A DNA stretch of 38,345 nucleotides from positions 1 through 38,345 of IMG/VR virus record IMGVR_UViG_3300042874_000025; one strand, 5' to 3'. This stretch comes from a virus. Below the pieces are notes generated by a model. The model had not been told where the DNA came from. It saw only the letters and a list, made by a program, of their open reading frames with translations, and did no database searches. The position numbers and the translations under genes were made by a program. Positions 1 through 38,345 of this stretch are shown in pieces (within the stretch, counting starts at the first letter, position 1; every line of letters starts with the position of its first letter).

Positions 1-374
1 ACGTAGTCATTCTTTTGAATTGTGTCGTTCTGAAAAGCCAACCGGGTGTCTAGCTGAACAGAGTTGTCAGAAATATGACTCATATAGTTCCTGAACTGAA
101 CCCAAGCTTGCGTCGAGAAGTCGCTCATAAATTTAACACTAACAGCTCCTTCTTTTTTTGAGAGTAGTTTGTTTTGGTAGTCAACAAGGTCTTTATCTAC
201 AAGTCTGGCCACATCATATTCATCGGTAGACCATAGCCCCCGCTCCTGATCCCAGATGGCATAAAACCCCTTACCTCTGACCATCAAGTCTTTACATCGT
301 CCAACCTTAAAATTGGGCAATATATCGATGGTTCCAGACTTGCTTGTTCGTTCGCTAATATTGAAAAAGTCCAT
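1..374 (-). CDS. N-terminal part of SF3 helicase / AEP primase-like / family B DNA polymerase (runs off left end)
   Basis: The first 124 codons of the replication protein, starting at an ATG at 374 with AAAGGAGGT nine bases upstream. The product begins MDFFNISERTSKSGTIDI and contains RCKDLMVRGKGFYAIWD, followed by a segment ending QKNDY at the window edge. I read it as the region preceding a D5-type SF3 helicase. If the four bases ACGT shared by both window ends are counted once, it continues in frame as NDYVSKKLPYPLE into the open frame at 38343. A direct join that keeps both ACGT copies would give a stop within a few codons. The gene lies immediately downstream of the iteron region, as expected for a replication initiator or helicase gene. 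This stretch is too short to assign a domain on its own, so the assignment rests on the continuation. Confidence 0.8.
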   Translation of the reverse strand, partial: MDFFNISERTSKSGTIDILPNFKVGRCKDLMVRGKGFYAIWDQERGLWSTDEYDVARLVDKDLVDYQNKLLSKKEGAVSVKFMSDFSTQAWVQFRNYMSHISDNSVQLDTRLAFQNDTIQKNDY

Positions 375-447
375 ATTCTTAGTACCTCCTTTCAAGAGCC
401 CAAAAAGGCGTCTGTTACACTATTTAGTGTTTTTGCTCTAAAACTTC

Positions 448-687: not shown

Positions 688-1245
688 TTACCGGCTGAAA
701 TTCTCGTCCAAGAACTCCTGCATTTGGTACCATATTTCCACTTTCCGCTGGTCGTGTCTAGGTTTTCTCAGGGGGAATAAACCCCCTTTTCCTTTGCGGT
801 CATACGTACGATCTATAAAGGTTCGCAGAATTTCTTCGACAGCCCTGTCAAAACCAGAACGGTTGTTGCGATATACTTTATCTGTAAAGAACTCCAGGCC
901 TAGATTGGTGATCATTAACCACAGCCATACCAGGGTCCTATTACCTTCCTCTGGTTCATACATAATATCTTCAATGCGCTTGGCTACGGATATTAAAACC
1001 TCCAACACTGAGCACGGGAAATCGTGATCTACTAAGATTCTGGTTCCAGTGGCAAATTCATTGTTGAATATATCTCTTAGAATTTTACCGTCTTCTAATC
1101 TATTCCCGTCATTAGGAACTGTCCATGTGAATTCCTTGTTGAAGAGAATATAAAACAATCGCCCATACTTTAAACCTGGAGGAGCCCCACTCTCCACCAG
1201 GTCTTCAAGCCACAGGTAATATCTCCGATTAATCTCGCTCTTCAT
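688..1245 (-). CDS. Conserved phage protein of unknown function, 185 aa
   Basis: A soluble, aromatic-rich protein. I place the start at the ATG at 1245 (MKSEINRRYYLWLE), which has GAAAGG just upstream and overlaps the preceding gene by 17 bases; the frame is open up to 1299. The C-terminal part, KGGLFPLRKP then DQRKVEIWYQMQEFL, and the internal segment FTWTVPNDGNR are the kind of sequence I associate with a widespread but uncharacterised protein of gut siphophages. No catalytic motif is visible. It is the last gene before the iteron region, which hints at a role in early infection or replication control, but nothing in the sequence proves it. Confidence 0.8.
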   Translation of the reverse strand: MKSEINRRYYLWLEDLVESGAPPGLKYGRLFYILFNKEFTWTVPNDGNRLEDGKILRDIFNNEFATGTRILVDHDFPCSVLEVLISVAKRIEDIMYEPEEGNRTLVWLWLMITNLGLEFFTDKVYRNNRSGFDRAVEEILRTFIDRTYDRKGKGGLFPLRKPRHDQRKVEIWYQMQEFLDENFSR

Positions 1246-1930
1246 TTGCCTTTCTCGACAAAGGGGCTTCGTTTTCATCGCCGGATCCGTAAGCCTCATT
1301 GACAGCGATCACATGGTAATCGCACTTAAGCTTTTCATTACGAATATAAGCAACATCGGGATCGCCTGAAGGTCCACCGAACGCGTTGATGATATCAGTA
1401 CCCAGATACTTCTCAGGTTTGGCGAGCACCTTGCCGTCTTCGTCAGTGAAGATCTCATCGTCGGTGTAGAAGTAGATCTTGGTTGTTTTTTTCTTGGCGT
1501 CGAATCCAGTGATATATTGTTCGCTGCTGATCGGGTAAGGTTTAGAGTGATCTACATCACGAGGTTTATCTTCTTCCTCGTCAACATACTCGGTTGGTGT
1601 CGGTTCATCGGGAACAGATTCCGAGTTACGTTTATATTTACCAATGACTGCCTCGATCGATTCCTTCTCGCCCACAGCATTGTAGTTCACCTTAGCGTTT
1701 TTGGCCTTGAGTTTCCATCCGTTCGTAAGGACCTCAGTTTCTATTAGGTCGTGGTCGAGCACAGGCCGAACCTTTTCACCGTCCATATCTTTATCCATTT
1801 CCTCAATCTCCCGGTAATATTTTTGAGTTGCGATGACATCCATAACGAACTGAGCGATGAATATACCGACAACTGCGCCCGCTACTCCGCCGACTGTATA
1901 GGTGGTGATTTTCTTCCAGTTAATGTCCAT
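1229..1930 (-). CDS. Membrane-anchored phage protein of unknown function, 233 aa
   Basis: One N-terminal transmembrane segment (about residues 9-33, TYTVGGVAGAVVGIFIAQFV) is followed by a charged linker rich in D, E and K, and a C-terminal globular part. That part has YFYTDDEIFTDEDGKV and, later, SGDPDVAYIRNEKLKCDYHV. The layout predicts an inner-membrane protein with a soluble domain. I recognise the C-terminal pattern (acidic YxxDDxxxxD stretch, then DPDVAYIRN) from other gut phages but know no function. AAGGAG lies 10 to 15 bases before the start. It overlaps the following gene, so the two are probably co-translated. Confidence 0.8.
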   Translation of the reverse strand: MDINWKKITTYTVGGVAGAVVGIFIAQFVMDVIATQKYYREIEEMDKDMDGEKVRPVLDHDLIETEVLTNGWKLKAKNAKVNYNAVGEKESIEAVIGKYKRNSESVPDEPTPTEYVDEEEDKPRDVDHSKPYPISSEQYITGFDAKKKTTKIYFYTDDEIFTDEDGKVLAKPEKYLGTDIINAFGGPSGDPDVAYIRNEKLKCDYHVIAVNEAYGSGDENEAPLSRKANEERD

Positions 1931-2057: not shown

Positions 2058-2984
2058 TCAAATAAGAGTAGCCATGATCCCGTCAACATTGAAGTCGAGG
2101 AGGACTGAGGGATTGTAACCGTTAACGAAATCACGGCTTGCAGGGTTTTTGGCGTCGAATATACCGAAGTCAATATAGTTGTCGCCTACAGGATTATCTT
2201 TACTGTACACCCAGCCAACCATTTGACCTTCAAGCGAACGCGGAATGCCGAGGTCGTCATAGACCTCGTTCAAGAACATATGCCCCTTCGCTTTGAATTT
2301 ATCGTTGCAGTGTGTCTGTACGGTTCGTAAGAAGAACGCGTTGAGGTTGCGATCGGTTCGCCATTCGGTCGAACTTTCATCGAAGAAGCGAGCATAAATA
2401 CTGGGGATCTGTTTGCCAATACTCTCAAGTTTACGGACCTTATTTTTGACCTTCTTACCTTCTTCGTCGGTGGTGGTCTCTGTCTCGATCTTTTCTTCAA
2501 AGCCGAGATGATACATGCGATCCTTTTCTTCGCCGAATTCATCGACAACGCGTTGTCGATAGTTCTTGTAGCCTTCACTCAAGAGGTTATATGCGCTGAC
2601 AAGTACAGCATTGCGGTGGGCCATGATTCCGCGTGAAGCAAGGATACAGGCGGTTGATGCAAGACCTACACTGATAGTGGGTCCGTAGAGTTTGGCGAAT
2701 TTGACTCCACTATTTACGTAGACCTTTACGATATCTTTCTTGCTGTCTTGTTCGGTATAAGCATCGTTATTTTTATCTATAGTAGCCACTTCTATGGAAT
2801 CAAGCTCGACTTGAGCTTCGTTGACGATCCCTTCTACTTTTAAAGCAGCTTTGCTCGCCAATACAATCGTTGCAAGCATTCCGATGAGCCCTGCCCCCAA
2901 CAGGATTTCGGGGGAATATTTCTGTAACTTGAGCCCAGCGCGTGTCATATCGAACCTCAAAAGGCTCATGTTGATTTTTTGCAT
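2058..2984 (-). CDS. DUF6353-like membrane protein, 308 aa
   Basis: The N-terminal half has two hydrophobic segments: about residues 26-46 (PEILLGAGLIGMLATIVLAS) and about 100-120 (PTISVGLASTACILASRGIM). These are followed by HRNAVLVSAYNLLSEGYKNYRQRVVDEFGEEKD. The hydrophobic pair, then an RNA(A/V)L...Y(R/K)xxV...GEEK(D/E) helix, then a beta-rich C-terminal part is the layout of the DUF6353 family of gut-phage proteins. The protein encoded at 5245-6015 has the same architecture, so the two are paralogues. AAGGAG stands seven bases before the ATG. The function of the family is not known to me. Confidence 0.8.
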   Translation of the reverse strand: MQKINMSLLRFDMTRAGLKLQKYSPEILLGAGLIGMLATIVLASKAALKVEGIVNEAQVELDSIEVATIDKNNDAYTEQDSKKDIVKVYVNSGVKFAKLYGPTISVGLASTACILASRGIMAHRNAVLVSAYNLLSEGYKNYRQRVVDEFGEEKDRMYHLGFEEKIETETTTDEEGKKVKNKVRKLESIGKQIPSIYARFFDESSTEWRTDRNLNAFFLRTVQTHCNDKFKAKGHMFLNEVYDDLGIPRSLEGQMVGWVYSKDNPVGDNYIDFGIFDAKNPASRDFVNGYNPSVLLDFNVDGIMATLI

Positions 2985-5244: not shown

Positions 5245-6015
5245 TTATATACGCCCAGGGCCTACTTGATAGTCGACCACGAGACAGGGTTCTTGATCTG
5301 GAGTCAATCTTGAGCTAAATTTGAACTCGAGAAAATATTTCGTGGTCCAACCCAAGTCTTCACCCATAGGGATTGTTTCGAGACCTAGTTCCTCGTATAA
5401 ACAGTTGAGAGACAGATAATCTCTTCGAAGTAAGAGTTGATTGTAATTGAGCTCTATCTTCTTGATAGTATTGATGTTGCTGCTGAAATATCGTCCGGAT
5501 AATTTGTCAAAACACAGAGTATTCCCGTTACCAGTTATAACTATCGAATTGTCTTTGAGCGGATGTTTATCGACAGCATCCTGGGCAATTTCGTCTCGTA
5601 CTTCCTGTTCTTTTTTTTCGCCAATTACTTCCTTGACTTTTTCTCTATATTCTCGAGCGGCAGTCTCTGTCAAAGAGAATAACGCTGCCAGAGCGCTGTT
5701 ACGGCGGATATTTACGCTGTTCGAGCCTACAATACAAGCGATCGTTGCCGCACCCATAATGGCCGAAGGAATATATTCTTTCCATGCAAGTCGAATAACT
5801 TCTGGGACGGTAATAGGTTCGATCGGTGCGCCTTCTTCATTATCCAAATCACGTTCGTGTTCTTCTTGTTTGATGATCTCCACAGCTTTCGGCGTAGCAT
5901 ACACCGCCATGACGACGGTTGTAATCAGCCCAGCCACCCCGAGTGCGGTGAGAATCGTTGGGCTATTTTTTTGCATGATTTTGTTAGCTTGGTGGAATGT
6001 AGCTAATAGATCCAT
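5245..6015 (-). CDS. DUF6353-like membrane protein, 256 aa
   Basis: Two hydrophobic segments: about residues 19-39 (PTILTALGVAGLITTVVMAV) and about 85-103 (PSAIMGAATIACIVGSNSV). After them comes NIRRNSALAALFSLTETAAR leading into EYREKVKEVIGEKKEQ, then a C-terminal part with YFLEFKFSSRLTPDQEPCLV. The order ATPKA, EYIPSA, ARREN-type helix and GEKKEQ...RDEIAQD is what I know as DUF6353, a phage family without assigned function. The 308-aa protein at 2058-2984 is a more divergent relative. The start has AAGGAAAT about ten bases upstream. It is predicted to sit in the host membrane with most of the chain on one side. Confidence 0.85.
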   Translation of the reverse strand: MDLLATFHQANKIMQKNSPTILTALGVAGLITTVVMAVYATPKAVEIIKQEEHERDLDNEEGAPIEPITVPEVIRLAWKEYIPSAIMGAATIACIVGSNSVNIRRNSALAALFSLTETAAREYREKVKEVIGEKKEQEVRDEIAQDAVDKHPLKDNSIVITGNGNTLCFDKLSGRYFSSNINTIKKIELNYNQLLLRRDYLSLNCLYEELGLETIPMGEDLGWTTKYFLEFKFSSRLTPDQEPCLVVDYQVGPGRI

Positions 6016-6793: not shown

Positions 6794-6824
6794 TATAATT
6801 CTCCTGTTATTTGGGTGGGGTTTC

Positions 6825-6852
6825 GTTATACCCTGTGCCATTTTCGCGAGGA
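6825..6852 (-). promoter_or_regulatory. Phage promoter element, copy B
   Basis: Minus strand: TATAAC (6830-6825) directly after CACAGGG, with CTCGCG at the conserved distance upstream and GAAACCCC downstream. It comes directly after the terminator at 6855-6890 and before the 28-aa gene, so it starts a new transcription unit. Confidence 0.7.
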
Positions 6853-7077: not shown

Positions 7078-7107
7078 TGGGTTTCTCCTTAGTTAGATTG
7101 GGGTTTC

Positions 7108-7135
7108 ATTATACCCTGTGCTATTCTCGCGAGAG
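7108..7135 (-). promoter_or_regulatory. Phage promoter element, copy C
   Basis: Minus strand: TATAAT (7113-7108) abutting GCACAGGG, with CTCGCG at the fixed upstream position and GAAACCCC downstream. It lies between the terminator at 7166-7198 and the 60-aa membrane protein gene. Confidence 0.7.
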
Positions 7136-29414: not shown

Positions 29415-32129
29415 TTACAAAGCTCTTTCTAACGTAGACACAGATACACCTAAAGCACTAGCTATCTCTGCTGCTGTGTAACCTAAAGAACGCATTCCTT
29501 GTGCCCTTAAAATTCTTGCAGGAGACATGCCTTTTGTTGTTCTAGGCATGGCTCTTTCTTTTAATAGGTCAATGTCAGTATTCAATAGTATCTGGCCAAG
29601 AGTGTCTTTATGGATTGCGCCAAGTTGAATGGCTTCCCATTCTCGATCAGTAATCAGTATTTTTTTCTTACCGGCACCCATTCTAGCACGGGCCTCCTCT
29701 AGGGCTTGTCCTTTTAACTTCTTAATCTCGGACTTCTCTAAATCGAGGTGGGCCTCTTTCTTAGCTTGATATATCATGTCTGCTAGTAACTGAGCTTGTC
29801 TTTCTAAAGGCTTATTCATATATGCTACTTTTAACTTAGCCTTAAGAACACTTACCTCATGGGCGTATGTCTTGTTTGCAGAGGGGGAGTATTCTATATC
29901 TCCTGTTTTAAGATAGACAAGTCTTGCTTTATTAGCCAACTGTTTTAAAGCATTGGCATGTTCGGCATAGACAGCTTCTTTCGTAGTGCCAGAAGATAAA
30001 TTATAAGCATCTGATTCTTTTTCCATCTTGGTTAGCTTAGTCGTTCTTTTTATTGTTTTACCAAGTTCTCCATCTTTCCCTTTTACGACAAAGCTTTCGT
30101 TGCTATCAACCATAATTCTTTTACCGGTTACAGGATCTGTTCGATGCGTATATTGTTTCTTACCTGTTATGTTATTGACAGTATATTCTTCAACTTGATG
30201 GGGTATTCGAGTTTCAGATTTAGCTCTAGATATAAGAGTAGACGCGCCGCCTGTTACTTTGTTTTGGTATTTGGCTTTTAATTCGCCAATACTATGATCA
30301 GTGTAGGACTTCTTATAATCAAGGTGGTGTTTCTCGGCATCAATGACAACCATTGAATGTTTTACAGCTCTTGCTATTTCGCTCTCGGTAGCACCCTTTA
30401 TAGTCATATCAGTAATGAGATTTGAAATATCCCCCATCTTTAACTGCTTACCTTTTGGAGATAAACCTTCTATCTTGGAATCAAGAGGATATGACTTTTT
30501 AGGATTGAAATTTTGAAGATCTTTCAAAGGAGCTGATGAACGAATCAATTTTTCTTTATTAGGAATAACAATAACTGTGTCACCATCAAAATCAGCCCCA
30601 GACAATCTTTCCGCAACTTTGGGGTGAATACCTATAGCATCTCTTGCGTCTTTAATTAAATTGTTTGCTTGAGGATTCTTATTATTCACAGTTAATTCGG
30701 GAATTTCGAATATGCCCCCGTGAGGGTGCCTTATAAGAACCACTCTATCTCCGTTATTGTATTTAGGAGCGTAGACTTCGTTCTCTTTGATAGATGTTAT
30801 TGGTAATATGATGTGGGTGTCTTGTCTTGGAAGAGCAGCAGCTTTTAAATGAATGGCGGCAGAATCTGATTCATCAGCAAAGGTCTCTAGCAATCTTTTC
30901 TTAAGTGTTGGGTTTGTTAGAGAATTGATCTCGTCGAACTCTTCTTTTTTAAGTTCAAACGCAAGCTTTAGTTGCTTCTTAGCAAGTGAGTCTGATTGTT
31001 TCGAAAGAACTTGAGACGAGATATTCTTAGACCAAACAACCCAATCACCCTCTTCATTGACGATGTTCAATACGCCTTTCTGTCCTCCCGGTTTGATTGC
31101 GGATCCGAAAGGATTGTGGGTGTCTATGGTACCATCTTTATTTTTCTCCATAGGTTTAAATACTTCGTCCGGTTTTGGTCCGCCAGGAACACGAACTGCT
31201 GTTCGAGGGATATCTTTTGTCTTACTTGTGTTATACACAATATCAACGCCTTTAGGGAAAGCATCGTCTGTGTACATGGCCATTCCTTTTAGATAATGGG
31301 TTCCATCAACACCTATTCTTACTTGTGCGTATTTGGAATTACCTAAAGAGGTATCGGCGACACCACGTCTAAGCTCTATTACCCCGTCTTTTAACGAACC
31401 ACCGTCTTCGTGATATCGAATAGCTACACGCTTGCCATCGACATTAACAACGGGCATAACAGGTATCACATAACCATTAATATCAAATCTTTGATCTACC
31501 ATTCTTATTTTATACTTTGCACCTTTTTGGTAGATTTCTGTATGAGGTGTGTCCGGTCCGGTAAGAACCATTAAAGATGTCTTCTTCCCAGTTCCGGCTT
31601 GAACTTGGCTGAGGTATTGAACTTTATACCCTTCTTCTTTCAAAAGGGCTACAGCCTGTTTAAGTTTATGTCGGTTCAGACCCATATGGATTTCTGTGCC
31701 AACGCCAACATCGATATATTTGTGTTCTTTAACTGCATTCCTAAGCACTCCAGCTACATTATTAGTAACCATTGCTCGCTCATGTTTTTCGTCATCGAGC
31801 CACTCTCTAATTGTTGATTCGTTGTATCCACCCATACGTTTACCAATCTCAACATGAGAATATCCTTTAGTTTTGAGCCTAAGGGCCTGTCTACGATTAT
31901 CTTCACGAAGTTCAGTTTTAATCATAGATTTTCTTGCCCTCAGTTCGGTGGTTTTTATACCTAAACCTTTAGCTATTTCTAGCTCGCTCATGCCTTCGTC
32001 TTCTAGGTTTTTAACATAACCTAGAAACGATTTGCCTCTTTGTTGAGGATCTTTCCCGGACCCCCAAGGATATCGGCCACTATGGCGTTTAGTGCCTTCG
32101 TGACTTAACTCGTCAATAGTTATTGTCAT
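29415..32129 (-). CDS. RNA-polymerase-like protein with DFDGD motif and HTH segments, 904 aa
   Basis: LSGADFDGDTVIVIPN (about 510-524) reproduces the metal-binding NADFDGD motif of the beta' subunit of cellular RNA polymerases (D513, D515, D517). About 45 residues before it, VVLIRHPHGGIFEIPELTV resembles the beta' stretch [20 protein letters not shown], and IHPKVAERL lies between, as in beta'. Earlier, YLKGMAMYTDDAFPKGVDIV and YNTSKTKDIPRT (280-310) resemble NKGVxS...PVDIVLNPxGVPSR of beta, so both double-psi barrels may be present in one chain, as in YonO-type phage polymerases. Helix-turn-helix-like segments occur at about 43-66, 82-110 and 874-903. The N-terminus has a GRYPWGSG tag. GGAGG precedes the ATG. 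Confidence 0.8.
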   Translation of the reverse strand: MTITIDELSHEGTKRHSGRYPWGSGKDPQQRGKSFLGYVKNLEDEGMSELEIAKGLGIKTTELRARKSMIKTELREDNRRQALRLKTKGYSHVEIGKRMGGYNESTIREWLDDEKHERAMVTNNVAGVLRNAVKEHKYIDVGVGTEIHMGLNRHKLKQAVALLKEEGYKVQYLSQVQAGTGKKTSLMVLTGPDTPHTEIYQKGAKYKIRMVDQRFDINGYVIPVMPVVNVDGKRVAIRYHEDGGSLKDGVIELRRGVADTSLGNSKYAQVRIGVDGTHYLKGMAMYTDDAFPKGVDIVYNTSKTKDIPRTAVRVPGGPKPDEVFKPMEKNKDGTIDTHNPFGSAIKPGGQKGVLNIVNEEGDWVVWSKNISSQVLSKQSDSLAKKQLKLAFELKKEEFDEINSLTNPTLKKRLLETFADESDSAAIHLKAAALPRQDTHIILPITSIKENEVYAPKYNNGDRVVLIRHPHGGIFEIPELTVNNKNPQANNLIKDARDAIGIHPKVAERLSGADFDGDTVIVIPNKEKLIRSSAPLKDLQNFNPKKSYPLDSKIEGLSPKGKQLKMGDISNLITDMTIKGATESEIARAVKHSMVVIDAEKHHLDYKKSYTDHSIGELKAKYQNKVTGGASTLISRAKSETRIPHQVEEYTVNNITGKKQYTHRTDPVTGKRIMVDSNESFVVKGKDGELGKTIKRTTKLTKMEKESDAYNLSSGTTKEAVYAEHANALKQLANKARLVYLKTGDIEYSPSANKTYAHEVSVLKAKLKVAYMNKPLERQAQLLADMIYQAKKEAHLDLEKSEIKKLKGQALEEARARMGAGKKKILITDREWEAIQLGAIHKDTLGQILLNTDIDLLKERAMPRTTKGMSPARILRAQGMRSLGYTAAEIASALGVSVSTLERAL

Positions 32130-32130
32130 A

Positions 32131-32691
32131 TCAGTCCTCCAAAGAGTTTTTAATTATCTCAATTCTTTTGTCGAAAGACACTATTTTTTTCATAATCTTG
32201 AGAATATCAGAAGGATCCGGTGTATGCACTACTATTTCGTTATTCTGGTATAATCTTAATTCAACGTTAATCTTTTTCGGATCTTCTTTATATTCCAAGC
32301 AAAAGAGCGCCACATAGATCTCTAATTGATACATCGCAACGGGAGATACCCCAGTCTTCAGATCATGAACTCGAAGTACATTATTCCTAAAAGATATAGT
32401 ATCAGCTGTACCAAAGGCATTGTAGGAATGGAATAAAAGCACTTCAGGTTTCATACGAAACCCTATTGCATCGTTTACGTACGAATTTAATGTGATATTA
32501 CTTTTGGGTAACTTCTGTCCTAATTTTATACACTGACATGCGAAAGCGTGGAGAACAGTTCCTCTTTGGGCTGCCATATGAGTAAGATATGCCCTATCAA
32601 GTTTGTCTTCATCATAATTAACCCAATGATATTTAGATGCGCTTAGAAAGGCATGTTGGCCTTCTAGTTCGGAATGAGAGTTGAAGTTCAT
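32131..32691 (-). CDS. PD-(D/E)XK nuclease, Cas4/RecB-like
   Basis: 186 aa. The start MNFNSHSELEGQHAFLSASK, then HMAAQRGTVLHAFACQCIKL (with the early H of RecB-type nucleases: RGTVLHAF), leads to YNAFGTADTISFRNNVLRVH and DLKTG. GTADxxxxxxxxLxxxDLKTG is the D...(D/E)xK active-site pattern, with YQLEIYVALF the following Q-x-x-x-Y motif. Such nucleases process DNA ends in replication and recombination. No Cys cluster is seen, unlike Cas4. It overlaps the VRR-NUC gene by 59 bases, and its stop lies inside the ribosome binding site of the next gene. Confidence 0.85.
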   Translation of the reverse strand: MNFNSHSELEGQHAFLSASKYHWVNYDEDKLDRAYLTHMAAQRGTVLHAFACQCIKLGQKLPKSNITLNSYVNDAIGFRMKPEVLLFHSYNAFGTADTISFRNNVLRVHDLKTGVSPVAMYQLEIYVALFCLEYKEDPKKINVELRLYQNNEIVVHTPDPSDILKIMKKIVSFDKRIEIIKNSLED

Positions 32692-32953
32692 GAAGAATCT
32701 CCATTTTGTTTTCGTTATTTATAAATCTAGCGAATGACATTGAGTCCATCAGATCGACATAATATTTTTGATTGGGTTGTATAAAAGATTCACCATCAGC
32801 TTTCCCTTCCAAAGCCGCCCATCTGTCATTATAAAGAACGAGCAAATCAGGTATTCCTTGGATGTAATTAGCATCATTCTTTAGCACTATACATCCAGGA
32901 AAAAGGCTTTTTAGATCTTTAATTAGGCGAGCTTGAAATTTAGATTCTAACAT
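32633..32953 (-). CDS. VRR-NUC domain nuclease
   Basis: 106 aa. MLESKFQARLIKDLKSLFPG, then IQGIPDLLVLYNDRWAALEG, then KADGESFIQPNQKYYVDLM: the order E...(Q)GIPDxxxxxxxxxxxxEGK...QxxY is the catalytic core of the VRR-NUC family, restriction-like nucleases that often accompany phage helicases and may resolve branched DNA. AAAAGGAG precedes the ATG. It is the first gene after promoter E and its leader hairpin. Confidence 0.9.
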   Translation of the reverse strand: MLESKFQARLIKDLKSLFPGCIVLKNDANYIQGIPDLLVLYNDRWAALEGKADGESFIQPNQKYYVDLMDSMSFARFINNENKMEILHELQLSFRTRRPTCLSKRI

Positions 32954-33197: not shown

Positions 33198-34439
33198 TCA
33201 TGTCGTGTATCCCCACCCAAACGCCGTCTCCACAAACTTAGTTTCATTGAATTTCTCCTTTTTAGCTAGAACTCTTAGATAGGCTTTATCTATTTCTGAC
33301 TCAGAATACAGTCGATGGTAATATAAATTACCGTACCCAGTATTCAATCTATCAATCCTACCTGCTGCTTGAGTCATTATACGCCAGGAGTAATGCAGAG
33401 AGTAAAAAACTACACAGTTCGTCTCGACGCAATTCCATCCCTCTGCTCCTGATGTGTATTGTACAAAATATAACCACTTATCTCCTTCAGGCACCGATTC
33501 ATGTTTATGACCATTATATTCTGCCCAAGGGATCGAAAGAGAGTCGCCAAAAGCTCTCAATATGTCGAGTTCGAAGTTGTAGTTGTAGAATACGATTTGT
33601 CTTGGATGTACAACTAATAAATCCTTAATTTTTTCGATTCTGCTTGGATCACTGAAAGATATCTTCCTCATTAGAGTGCAAAGCTCGGCTACATCCCTAA
33701 CTGGTTTTTGTTCGAATGGATTCCATCGTTTCTTTGTAACCGTATCAAAGACGTCTTTATCGTAAACCATAATATGATCTATTGTGTGAGATACAGTTTT
33801 TTTCTCATATGGCATATCCACTAAAATTGAAATCTTATGGCGGTCCAATAGTGTGACTTCGACGTAATGATCCACTTTAGGATATGGGCTGAATAGATTG
33901 TAGACGACATGTCGTCTTAAGAATTCAGTTCGGTTCTTATAGAAACCATTAGCAACAAATGCGGGTATATAATCAAGCCATGTGTCTGCTGGTGTGGCAG
34001 ACAAAAGTATCCATTGGTTATATTTTGTTGTCTCGAGAAAAGACTTTACCCAAGTACCAGATCCAACTACTCGTTGTTCGTCAAATATGAAGAATGCTCC
34101 TTTTACATCTGCGTATTTTTTAATATTATTCCATGAATCAACTGTGACTTGGATGCCTGATATGCTTGAGTCACGATCACGAGAAAGGGCGAATAGAGCA
34201 GCCTCACTGTCCCATTCAAGTTTGTCTCTCTTATTGGCGGTAGTGATGATATAGAGATCTCTAGGGGTAGTCGGGGCTGTCATGTTGATATGGATGTCCG
34301 AAAGAGATCCACCGCATACTCTCGTGTAGAAATATGCCAGAGAAGTTATGGACTTCCCAGAACCGACCCCACCGCAAAGGATGGAGCCGGTCTTTAATTT
34401 GGAAATCGCAGTTATCTGGTGAGGAAATAGACTAAACAT
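33198..34439 (-). CDS. Superfamily 2 (DEAD/SNF2-like) helicase
   Basis: 413 aa from the ATG at 34439 (MFSLFPHQITAISKL); the frame is open to 34514 within the ssDNA-binding protein gene. Q-motif-like FPHQ is followed by Walker A GGVGSGKS (23-30), the DEAD-type box IFDEQR (119-123), LLSATP (145-150) and, near the end, QAAGRIDRLN, which is motif VI. Phage SF2 helicases of this compact type act in origin opening, replication restart or recombination. Start and the preceding stop overlap (ATGTTTAG), so translation is coupled to the ssDNA-binding gene. The stop is TGA. Confidence 0.9.
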   Translation of the reverse strand: MFSLFPHQITAISKLKTGSILCGGVGSGKSITSLAYFYTRVCGGSLSDIHINMTAPTTPRDLYIITTANKRDKLEWDSEAALFALSRDRDSSISGIQVTVDSWNNIKKYADVKGAFFIFDEQRVVGSGTWVKSFLETTKYNQWILLSATPADTWLDYIPAFVANGFYKNRTEFLRRHVVYNLFSPYPKVDHYVEVTLLDRHKISILVDMPYEKKTVSHTIDHIMVYDKDVFDTVTKKRWNPFEQKPVRDVAELCTLMRKISFSDPSRIEKIKDLLVVHPRQIVFYNYNFELDILRAFGDSLSIPWAEYNGHKHESVPEGDKWLYFVQYTSGAEGWNCVETNCVVFYSLHYSWRIMTQAAGRIDRLNTGYGNLYYHRLYSESEIDKAYLRVLAKKEKFNETKFVETAFGWGYTT

Positions 34440-34950
34440 CCTCTTTTTCGTCGTCGTTCTCTTCGAATCCCGTATCAGCCGGGTTTTGATATTTGGCTTC
34501 GAAAGCATCTTCAACGATCGTGAAGTAACCTGCTTTCAAATATGCTTTGACCCCTGAATTACCGTTCACATTCCACACGGAAGGATTCAGAATAAGATCA
34601 ACTTTAGAGATTTCGGCCCAATCGAGAAGATCTACGTCTCCCTCGTCGAGATATACCGCCTTGTTATTACCTTTGATCAAAACGATCTTCGGCGGAAACT
34701 TAGCGTAACTGACCTTAACTTGAACATAAGGCTCAGGGGAGTCATCCTCACTGCGAGGCTTGGTCATCCGAATATTCCAACCATGAGCAGCCAAATCCTT
34801 AGCCATTTTAGGATCGTCAAGAAGGACGCAGAAACTGCGATCACCTTCTCGATTGTACTTACCTGGTTTGCCTGCTAAGTTGCGGAAGAATATGCGAGTA
34901 TCCTCAATGTTCACGATCGGAAGTCTGGGCGTAACTTTCTTGATATGCAT
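34432..34950 (-). CDS. ssDNA-binding-like protein with acidic tail
   Basis: 172 aa. IFFRNLAGKPGKYNREGDRS, then FCVLLDDPKMAKDLAAHGWN, PYVQVKVSYAKFPPKIVLIK and INVDLILNPSVWNV-type sequence (VDLILNPSVWNVNGNSGVKA) form a beta-rich domain of the kind annotated as OB-fold ssDNA-binding protein in related phages. The C-terminus is acidic (EENDDEKEDV), as in SSB and T7 gp2.5, where it contacts other replication proteins. AAAGGAG precedes the ATG, 13 bases after the polymerase stop. Confidence 0.75.
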   Translation of the reverse strand: MHIKKVTPRLPIVNIEDTRIFFRNLAGKPGKYNREGDRSFCVLLDDPKMAKDLAAHGWNIRMTKPRSEDDSPEPYVQVKVSYAKFPPKIVLIKGNNKAVYLDEGDVDLLDWAEISKVDLILNPSVWNVNGNSGVKAYLKAGYFTIVEDAFEAKYQNPADTGFEENDDEKEDV

Positions 34951-34962
34951 CTAAAACTCCTT

Positions 34963-37900
34963 TTAATTATTTGAGGTGAACCACTCGAAGTCACCATATT
35001 GTGCTATTTTTTCTACTGCTGCGTCTACGAGTTTGACGTAATAGCTTTGATCGATATCTTCCTGTTTATTAAGGGAAGCGACAACTTCAGATTCCATCCA
35101 ACGATAACCCTTGGTTCCAACAGCAGCGTGGTAAGATCCGTCTTTTTCTCTAACCAGGAGCCCACCCCCCGTTCCTGGCTTCATCGGGCAGAAGAGCCCA
35201 GCCTTTCCTACGAAGTGGATATTGTGATTTGATTCGTCACTTTCATTAAAATCAAGATGTAAGGCTGTTGTTACCTGTTTAGTCTCGCACATATCCTTGA
35301 ATGCTATTGATTCACCACTAAACAAAGTCTTGAAGACATAAGGTTGTGCGAACTGTGCTCCAGTGGCGGTCCATTCTCCCTCTGTAGTTTTAGCAATATA
35401 GACAGAATCGTTGACGAGACAGAGTTTGGCGTATGTCTCTTCGTGTTCAAACGTGTAGCCATATTTAGCCCCGAATTCGAATACAAACTTTATAATCTCA
35501 GGTGTTGCATCTGGGATCTTAATAGAGTCTGTTTTGATATGAACAACGGTAAATCCTTTGGCCTGCACGGCTAGAAGAAGGTCTATCATAAACAAGGCTC
35601 CGCGCTTAGCCACAATATTATCAGTATTTCGAAGATCTCTGAATTTACTATCATACTGAGCAGCAGTAAATCCATAGACACTGACGATGATAGTCTTTAG
35701 AGCTGCAGATAACGATTTTGCTGAATCCTTGGACCCTAAATATTTCTTAAGGGCGCCATTCATTAAACTACCTGCTGCTTCAAAGTCTTTGTGTTTGATA
35801 GCTATACGCGCGCTTTTTAACTCGCTGAATCTCTTGGTATATACTGATCCAAACAGGTTTAGACATTCGATACTTGTGGGATGCATGGAAGCCACATCAA
35901 GCAATACGACATTTTTATACATCCCAGGTTCGGAATATACGAACCCTCCCTCTCCTGCTTCGAGTCCTTTATAAGTACTTACACCTCCTTCGAATTTGTA
36001 GCCTTGGAACATCTCGCCTAGATCGGTATAGATGAAATTATCCTGAGGATTTTGGTCTTGACCAAATAAGATTCTTGTAGTATGCATCTGAGTAGTAGCG
36101 TTGACAGGTAGCCCACTAAGTTCGGCTAGAATTTGTCTGGCTACAAAGTCTTCTTTACGGTCGTTGAATGTTGCCTCAAGAGAGGTCACGTCATTTGCAC
36201 AATAGTCTGCCGCCTTAACCCACAAATCTTCTGGAACAGGTTGATCCCAAGGGAGGCCTAATTCTTGGTGATGGATACCTAGTTGTATCTGGAATATCTT
36301 AAGTCCTTGTTTTACAGACGAGAAGTCCAAAACATCAGCATAGGAAATATCGTATGCTTCTCTGAACATTCCGTTCCGTGATTTATTGATTATCTTCTGA
36401 CTTAATTGATACAGTTGTTCGTTATCATAACCAAGGTACCTGGCATAGAGGATATGATTATCATATCTCCGACAATTGAACCCGACAAGTTTCATTTCGA
36501 ACAAGGTTTCCATGTCTTGCGCTGTTGGGTTGATCATACGGACGCATTCATGTTCTTCCCCCTGGAATTTCCAAACTACAATAAATAGATTAGGAAATAC
36601 CTCGGTATCATAGAACACTATTGAGTCATTCTTGTAGGCTTCTGATACTTGCTGGATATTATCAAGCTCTTCAGATTTAAACTTCATCTTCCCAACAGTC
36701 TTTACACAATGCTCCGATTGATTAGTACTATTCATCGCGAACGATAAGATCTTCGGACGCATCTCTGTCAAATCATATCTTAGATCTGACTCATGCGCAT
36801 CATCGAGAATCTTCTTAATGAAATCAACACTCGGTGCTGTCGCGGGATGGATCTCTTTGTGTAAATTTCTTAGAATGAGATCTCTAAGCCCTCGCTCGCT
36901 CTTTACAGAGTCTGCATTTATCATCTTTACTCCTTTCAAGGGTAAGCCGCTATTTAATCTAGCGATGGGTATATTGTTACATTTAGTCAACTTTCTTCTG
37001 AGCGAGGAGTCCCCATTAAAAACCTTCACCTCAATGCCTTGGCTAAATATTCGACTTAAAGTGGACGTATCTCCTTCATAAATGTAATGGAGATGTATAG
37101 CTTTACCACTTTTACTTAACTCGGCATAGGTTGCGGGCCACTTAGAGGCAGCCTCGATATTTTCCTCCAATGACTTTTGTCCGCCCTCACTTGTAAGATC
37201 GAAATCTATCACTATATGATTCTCTGGTACTTTAACATAATGAAGAAGTGTCGTATCTAAAGAAGAAAGAGTGGTTGTGGTGTTGTTCCATTTTCTCCCA
37301 GGCAGGTCATCATTGTTTGCGTATTGAGCCAGGCAACCTGAATATAGATCATCGATGATCGATTTTGCGGAATCCATAACTAGAGAACTTGGAGGAACTT
37401 CTTGTTCTTCTACTGCGGCAGCTACAAACTTAGACTCAAGAAACCCTGAATATATACTGCGAACTTGCTTTCCCTCAATTCTCTCCACATCCGAAAATTT
37501 CTCGAAATAGTTCTTCAGTTCTTCACGAAACTTATGTTTTGGCAATTTGAATTCGATGAGCGACTCGTCGCAGTAGGTTTTATAAATGTCATACCCCTGT
37601 GTTAGAGTGGTACTATTCTGTTGCTTGAACAGGTAGAAATTTGCTTCGACGAAATTAAAGAACACGTCTGTCTGTAACATCATATCCAAAGGTCTATATA
37701 GTGAATAGTAGTTCTTCCCCATTCTCCTATAAACTTTAAGACAGTGGAAAGCAATAGCGCCCAGCTCAAAATCTATCTGCCCCATAAGGGATTGGTATCT
37801 TCTAGTAGGGACTTTATTTCCAGAAGGGCGCACATCGATAAGGCGACGGAGAAGACCTGATTTCCCGTCTGTTATGCGAACAGGTTTATTAGTAGCCATG

Positions 37901-38345
37901 AACAAGAAAGCATTAACCCTTGACATGTAACTAGGTTTATATTTCTCATTCATCGTCATCTGCTCGTGAGACACTATCGAGTTTAATCTTGTATTATCTT
38001 CGATCCTTGATAGATCCCCGTCGTGTTGGATGGCGACAAGAGGATTGTCCTTAAACGACTCAGTAGAGAAGGAGTTGTTTGACGAAGTCAAAGCTTTAGC
38101 CTCGAATGTCGTGTAATACCCAATAAATAATCTCTGTATGATGTCAAGCATGGTTGATTTACCAGTGCCTGCTGCACCATACATGACAACAAATTTTTGA
38201 ATGGTCTTAGCGTCTCCAGCAATAATAGCACCTATTGCCCATTCAAGTTTAGCTCGTTCCTCCTTCTCGTAAAGGGTACTTACGATTTCCTCGTAAGCTT
38301 CGATGTTGCCTTTCTCTAAAGGATATGGAAGCTTCTTACTTACGT
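34963..38345 (-). CDS. SF3 helicase / AEP primase-like / family B DNA polymerase (continues from left end)
   Basis: Residue numbers are for the joined 1250-aa protein. SF3 (D5-like) helicase: Walker A GAAGTGKS (180-187), Walker B area LVAIQHDGD (about 226), sensor LFMATNK with N276, arginine finger area LLRRLIDVRP. An AEP-type primase-like domain follows: IVIDFDL (D504, D506), SKSGKAIHLHY (H541, H543) and IEVKVF with E562. Then family B polymerase: exonuclease motifs FYDTEVFPN (D703, E705), GFNCRRYD (N747, D752) and YCANDVT (D842); polymerase motif A LLDVASMHP (D940), motif B KTIIVSVYGFT (K1007, Y1014) and motif C HIKTDSIK (D1063). One chain would thus unwind, possibly prime, copy and proofread DNA. 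The stop is TAA; the 5' end lies at 374. Confidence 0.9.
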   Translation of the reverse strand, partial: VSKKLPYPLEKGNIEAYEEIVSTLYEKEERAKLEWAIGAIIAGDAKTIQKFVVMYGAAGTGKSTMLDIIQRLFIGYYTTFEAKALTSSNNSFSTESFKDNPLVAIQHDGDLSRIEDNTRLNSIVSHEQMTMNEKYKPSYMSRVNAFLFMATNKPVRITDGKSGLLRRLIDVRPSGNKVPTRRYQSLMGQIDFELGAIAFHCLKVYRRMGKNYYSLYRPLDMMLQTDVFFNFVEANFYLFKQQNSTTLTQGYDIYKTYCDESLIEFKLPKHKFREELKNYFEKFSDVERIEGKQVRSIYSGFLESKFVAAAVEEQEVPPSSLVMDSAKSIIDDLYSGCLAQYANNDDLPGRKWNNTTTTLSSLDTTLLHYVKVPENHIVIDFDLTSEGGQKSLEENIEAASKWPATYAELSKSGKAIHLHYIYEGDTSTLSRIFSQGIEVKVFNGDSSLRRKLTKCNNIPIARLNSGLPLKGVKMINADSVKSERGLRDLILRNLHKEIHPATAPSVDFIKKILDDAHESDLRYDLTEMRPKILSFAMNSTNQSEHCVKTVGKMKFKSEELDNIQQVSEAYKNDSIVFYDTEVFPNLFIVVWKFQGEEHECVRMINPTAQDMETLFEMKLVGFNCRRYDNHILYARYLGYDNEQLYQLSQKIINKSRNGMFREAYDISYADVLDFSSVKQGLKIFQIQLGIHHQELGLPWDQPVPEDLWVKAADYCANDVTSLEATFNDRKEDFVARQILAELSGLPVNATTQMHTTRILFGQDQNPQDNFIYTDLGEMFQGYKFEGGVSTYKGLEAGEGGFVYSEPGMYKNVVLLDVASMHPTSIECLNLFGSVYTKRFSELKSARIAIKHKDFEAAGSLMNGALKKYLGSKDSAKSLSAALKTIIVSVYGFTAAQYDSKFRDLRNTDNIVAKRGALFMIDLLLAVQAKGFTVVHIKTDSIKIPDATPEIIKFVFEFGAKYGYTFEHEETYAKLCLVNDSVYIAKTTEGEWTATGAQFAQPYVFKTLFSGESIAFKDMCETKQVTTALHLDFNESDESNHNIHFVGKAGLFCPMKPGTGGGLLVREKDGSYHAAVGTKGYRWMESEVVASLNKQEDIDQSYYVKLVDAAVEKIAQYGDFEWFTSNN

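Follow-up and report, generated by a model that had tools for sequence, protein, structure and literature searches.

A single minus-strand frame of the window (the whole 38,345-nucleotide stretch of viral DNA analysed here) appeared to combine a helicase, a primase-like domain and a DNA polymerase in an unusual order. This raises the question of whether these parts belong to one genuine gene, whether the domain between helicase and polymerase is a primase, and whether replicases of this build are already known.

Replicase gene and its continuity across the contig ends

The minus-strand frame 34963–38343 comprises 1126 codons with an open 5' end, and was matched over its whole length by PHROG 4210, annotated as 'DNA polymerase' (E = 0, positions 128–1287 of the 1304 in the profile). 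The first 127 positions of the same profile matched the left end of the window (3–395, minus strand). Bases 1–4 and 38342–38345 are identical (ACGT); when these were counted once and the two gene pieces joined across the 4-base overlap, a stop-free frame encoding 1250 amino acids resulted, with a seam (TIQKNDY followed by VSKKLPYPLEKG) that agreed with that of the 85%-identical homologue L002 (TIQKTDYVSKKLPYPLEKG). The profile match at the opposite end, the stop-free joined frame and the L002-like seam together indicate that the record represents a circular or circularly permuted genome, opened within the replicase gene and overlapping itself by 4 bases; its unique length would be 38341 bases. 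Truncation of the gene by the contig end was also considered and was ruled out by the PHROG match at the opposite end, which showed that circular permutation accounts for the cut. The main part of the gene lies at 34963–38345 (minus strand; residues 125–1250, encoded by 34966–38343, plus the stop codon) and the first 124 residues at 1–374 (minus strand; PHROG 4210 positions 1–127), with the ATG at 374–372 and a Shine-Dalgarno sequence GGAGG, read from the sequence, at 385–389 (minus strand), 10 bases upstream. The circular cut means that the size of 1250 amino acids given in the first-pass annotation is exact for the whole gene, while the coordinates assigned to it, 34963–38345, were incomplete, containing 1126 residues and lacking the other 124 at 1–374 (minus strand). 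Residues are numbered below by window numbering, to which 124 is added to obtain full-length numbering.

With the contig ends falling inside the gene, one of its junctions depends on an overlap of 4 bases, and this could speak for an assembly artefact joining genes from different genomes. We consider this barely credible: the same continuous order was present in 71 full-length relatives from viral contigs and sequenced phages, 252 phage records matched at 80% coverage or more, and the seam is that of L002. A chimera was rejected because all full-length relatives have the same order, and a chance origin of the 1250-residue protein is excluded by the 252 phage records in which at least 80% of its length was matched.

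Domain architecture of the replicase

The protein starts with a short N-terminal region; an SF3 helicase, an AEP (PriS-like) domain and an alpha-helical domain (aHD) come next, and the exonuclease and polymerase of family B form the C-terminal part. The helicase (37414–38343, minus strand) contains a Walker A motif, GAAGTGKST (38152–38178), a sensor-1 Asn152 and Arg166/Arg167, assigned as the arginine finger by position only. Its region matched Pfam DUF5906 (E = 5.5e-13) and the NCBIfam primase_Cterm P4 family (E = 3.9e-13, yet under the curated cut-off of that model). Phage 'DNA primase' PHROGs mostly matched the helicase region by their C-terminal halves, the usual position of the helicase in proteins where the primase comes first. 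The AEP catalytic domain (36904–37392, minus strand) carries the motifs DFD (380–382), SGKAIHLH (412–419) and EVKVF (438–442), with D380, D382, H417 and E438 as predicted catalytic residues from AlphaFold2, Foldseek and conservation. Behind the AEP core lies the aHD (36679–36903, minus strand; helices 160–234 of the model), which includes Y523 and F535. The 3'–5' exonuclease (36064–36636, minus strand) has D579, E581, D628, Y714 and D718, and the family B polymerase domain (34966–36063, minus strand) has D816 in motif A, K883 and Y890G891 in motif B and, in motif C, KTDS (937–940) in place of the usual DTDS. For the polymerase, a sequence-profile search matched E. coli Pol II (E = 8e-7), and the fold comparison matched archaeal PolB and Pol alpha (E about 1e-15). 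Profile and fold matches thus bear out the initial view of one frame in which the AEP domain lies between the SF3 helicase and the family B polymerase with its exonuclease.

Fold of the middle domain and conservation of catalytic residues

A Foldseek search with the whole chain returned PolB matches only among the matches listed, and the middle domain was therefore folded and searched alone. The AlphaFold2 model, built from an alignment of 56 relatives, had a mean pLDDT of 89.7. Whether this domain folds as an AEP had been named beforehand as the point on which the assignment could fail; the ten best matches in the PDB were all pRN1 or NrS-1 primase-polymerase (E = 1.5e-4 to 1.5e-3), the next match having a probability of 0.10. 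A viral structure library also returned annotated primase-polymerases. Whole-chain TM-scores were low (0.26–0.36), and a difference in the helical domain accounts for at least part of this. In the comparison with the helix-bundle domain (HBD) that follows the catalytic core in classical PrimPol–helicases, helices were present after the AEP core, and the NrS-1 matches spanned only 138–143 columns. The sequence-profile search of the PDB gave no AEP match for the window protein, NCBIfam was uninformative for AEP on the middle domain, and Pfam Prim-Pol gave weak matches in four of 33 members (best E = 0.023). The AEP match of the middle domain is one of fold only, and the fold comparison decided the assignment.

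Residues K62, N152, D380, D382, H417, E438 and F535 were invariant across 72 full-length and subsequently 193 distinct sequences, as were D579, E581, D628 and D718 of the exonuclease and D816 and D939 of the polymerase. In the 193 distinct homologues R166, R167 and the KTDS of motif C were likewise invariant, and Y523 of the aHD was kept in 191. The second histidine of HLH, H419, was kept in 190 of the 193, and this variation suggests that H417 is likely the catalytic histidine of the AEP domain. The DxD and the first histidine (H417), on whose retention in homologues the initial proposal depended, and the glutamate were kept in all 193. The first homologue set had been gathered by peptide patterns outside the AEP motifs and the bacterial-genome set by polymerase and helicase patterns, so that in these two sets selection does not account for the AEP conservation; the DFD motif did serve in part to select the second viral set.

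The weak Prim-Pol matches and the empty AEP result of the PDB profile search would suit a middle domain that has only a structural, linking role or has degenerated into a non-catalytic AEP, with another enzyme doing the priming. We regard this as highly improbable, since D380, D382, H417 and E438 are invariant in the 193 sequences, many of them fetched without use of the AEP motif, and the fold matches are to catalytically active primase-polymerases. Moreover, in the homologue GP55 of Lactococcus phage 1706, the mutant D509A, which corresponds to D382, is primase-deficient (PMC12205980), and the published mutants refute such a reading for GP55.

Homology to GP55 of Lactococcus phage 1706

GP55 (YP_001828703) was purified and dissected by Zhang et al. 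(2025) as a 'four-in-one replicase' with UTP/dTTP-dependent helicase, RNA-priming, polymerase and 3'–5' exonuclease activities (PMC12205980). According to the same study, it dimerises via its helicase domain, performs strand displacement through the helicase, and its primase and polymerase cooperate in trans; the aHD, a new helical domain for which homology to the HBD is absent, is required for priming, with Y655 and F667 essential (PMC12205980). The window protein aligned with GP55 over nearly its whole length (39% identity over 1186 aligned positions, E = 0), and the domain order is the same in both: helicase, PriS-like AEP, aHD, exonuclease/PolB. GP55 is longer (1317 versus 1250 amino acids), and gaps in the alignment fall in the C-terminal region near window residues 1040–1075. 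Seven GP55 residues reported as needed for activity (PMC12205980) were compared and all are identical in the window protein: K189 (K62), D509 (D382), Y655 (Y523), F667 (F535), D712 (D579), E714 (E581) and D949 (D816).

The name HelPrimPolB was given by Kazlauskas et al. (2020; PMC7544198) to polymerases that carry an SF3 helicase and a PrimPol domain as fusion partners; they cite their 2016 paper, in which the fusion was first described. Because of the whole-length homology to GP55, the window protein very likely belongs to this group and would be expected to cluster with it in a polymerase tree. The earlier statement that no biochemical description of such fusions was known is out of date, the architecture having been named in 2020 (PMC7544198) and GP55 dissected in 2025 (PMC12205980); architecture and biochemistry of such replicases are already described, and the window protein is an additional member.

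Neighbouring genes

In tblastn searches 17 of the 26 other window proteins tested matched the first 49 kb of the 1706 genome, the terminase with 61% identity, and homology and gene order are common to the window and 1706 from the replication genes through the tape measure. The phage is accordingly predicted from its gene content to be broadly 1706-like and tailed. Downstream of the replicase both genomes have a run of genes for an SSB, a helicase, an endonuclease and an exonuclease. In the window, all on the minus strand, these predicted products are an ssDNA-binding or single-strand annealing protein (34432–34950; gp66 homologue by tblastn, PF24083 with E = 1.5e-55, phrog_4787), a DEAD/DEAH-type helicase (33198–34514; gp67 homologue, 38% identity, phrog_62), an endonuclease (32633–32953; gp68 homologue, 41% identity, phrog_93) and an exonuclease (32131–32691; gp69 homologue, 42.5% identity over 80 amino acids, phrog_3953). 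Ten small genes separate replicase and SSB in 1706, whereas there are none in the window.

Several further features were observed. A 904-residue protein (29415–32129, minus strand) belongs to PHROG 4291, 'RNA-dependent RNA polymerase', and has DFDGD at residues 513–517, a helix-turn-helix near the N-terminus (74–113) and a sigma-70 region 4-like helix-turn-helix at the extreme C-terminus; it probably represents a single-chain, YonO/QDE-1-type RNA polymerase. Relatives of it were found in 250 phage records, whose hosts are distributed nearly as those of the replicase, and among the matches listed the sole annotation is 'helix-turn-helix DNA-binding domain protein'. A PHROG 4678 protein (688–1299, minus strand), with relatives in 209 fetched replicase loci, is a candidate partner or regulator. 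The window also encodes two paralogous DUF6353 (PHROG 2152) proteins (5245–6015 and 2058–2984, minus strand) and contains a direct repeat of 35 bases with 91% identity (6816–6850 and 7099–7133, 283 bases apart); a tRNA search of the window found none.

Repeats upstream of the replicase gene

Seven TGTTACACT repeats, in both orientations, lie in the noncoding DNA immediately before the replicase start (413–671). Eight sites were found in the whole window against 0.24 expected, and seven of these fall in the interval bounded by the replicase start (374) and the neighbouring minus-strand gene (688). The cluster is a candidate origin, or a candidate operator of the replicase gene; GC skew of the window indicated no clear origin. 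When upstream regions of relatives were compared with 50 shuffles each, 27 of 195 (the window included) had a repeated 8-mer commoner than in every shuffle, against about four expected by chance. This is a crude test on sequences that are related to one another, and some of these 27 cases are weak. Where the cluster is clear, each genome keeps to a single variant of the repeat (GTGTAACA, GTGTCACA, ACGCAACA, AAGTGGCA), and almost every copy in the fetched locus falls in the stretch upstream of the replicase. In most relatives, including Gordonia phage Pherobrine (L081), no such cluster was found upstream.

It is possible, although we think it doubtful, that the cluster is a replication origin bound by the N-terminal 124-residue region of the replicase or by its helicase. 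An origin bound in this way would mean that one protein recognises the origin, unwinds it, primes and copies. A variant shared by the copies of one genome, as seen in some relatives, is what a binding site changing along with its protein would be expected to show. The repeat cluster is the sole part that may be new and is best seen as a lead; if the repeats are the origin, origin, initiator and replisome would form a compact system approachable with a single purified protein.

Proposed mode of replication

We propose, with a probability of about 93%, that this HelPrimPolB protein is the GP55 ortholog of a tailed, 1706-like phage and serves as its replicase, working as GP55 does. By analogy, its activities and its nucleotide and site preferences would be those of GP55. 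The SF3 helicase, probably as a dimer, would open the duplex (with UTP or dTTP in GP55), the AEP domain with the aHD behind it would prime with short RNAs at sites that are loosely specified, and the family B polymerase would extend these with proofreading, its strand displacement helped by the helicase. The upstream repeats would be the place at which replication starts or at which the gene is controlled.

With just 39% identity between the proteins, the UTP/dTTP dependence of GP55 and its preference for CCAAC may not carry over. This room for differences, together with upstream repeats in a subgroup that go undiscussed for GP55 in the available part of PMC12205980, could point to a distinct, undescribed functional variant of GP55-like build that differs in the nucleotides it uses, in its oligomeric state or in its start sites. 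Such a variant seems improbable to us, as domains and their order, critical residues and surrounding genes are all the same as in GP55 and 1706, and we favour an ortholog that works as GP55 does. The protein adds a member to a family shown to do most of the replication-fork work in one chain, and is of value as a natural, diverged variant encoded by a circular 38-kb genome that is apparently complete.

Comparison with known replicases

The family is widespread, with replicase candidates at no fewer than 580 places in viral contigs and 188 in bacterial genomes. The 'DNA primase/polymerase' gp63 of Gordonia phage Pherobrine is about 59% identical over 99% of the window protein, and the same annotation is given in many of the approximately 250 sequenced phages with this protein. 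NrS-1 PrimPol and pRN1 ORF904 are likewise replicative proteins in which a single chain carries both an AEP catalytic fold and an SF3-type helicase. However, these have the AEP domain first and the helicase last, an HBD rather than an aHD, and no PolB, whereas the order in the window protein is the opposite; with its helicase preceding the AEP domain, it lies outside the classical PrimPol–helicase definition of an AEP domain N-terminal to SF3. The contrast that the first-pass annotation drew with the usual AEP-then-SF3 order holds for pRN1 ORF904 and NrSPol and agrees with the C-terminal helicase matches of the phage 'DNA primase' PHROGs. With the HelPrimPolB group no differences were found: both there and in the window protein, SF3 helicase and PrimPol domain are followed by a PolB that departs from the usual motif C.
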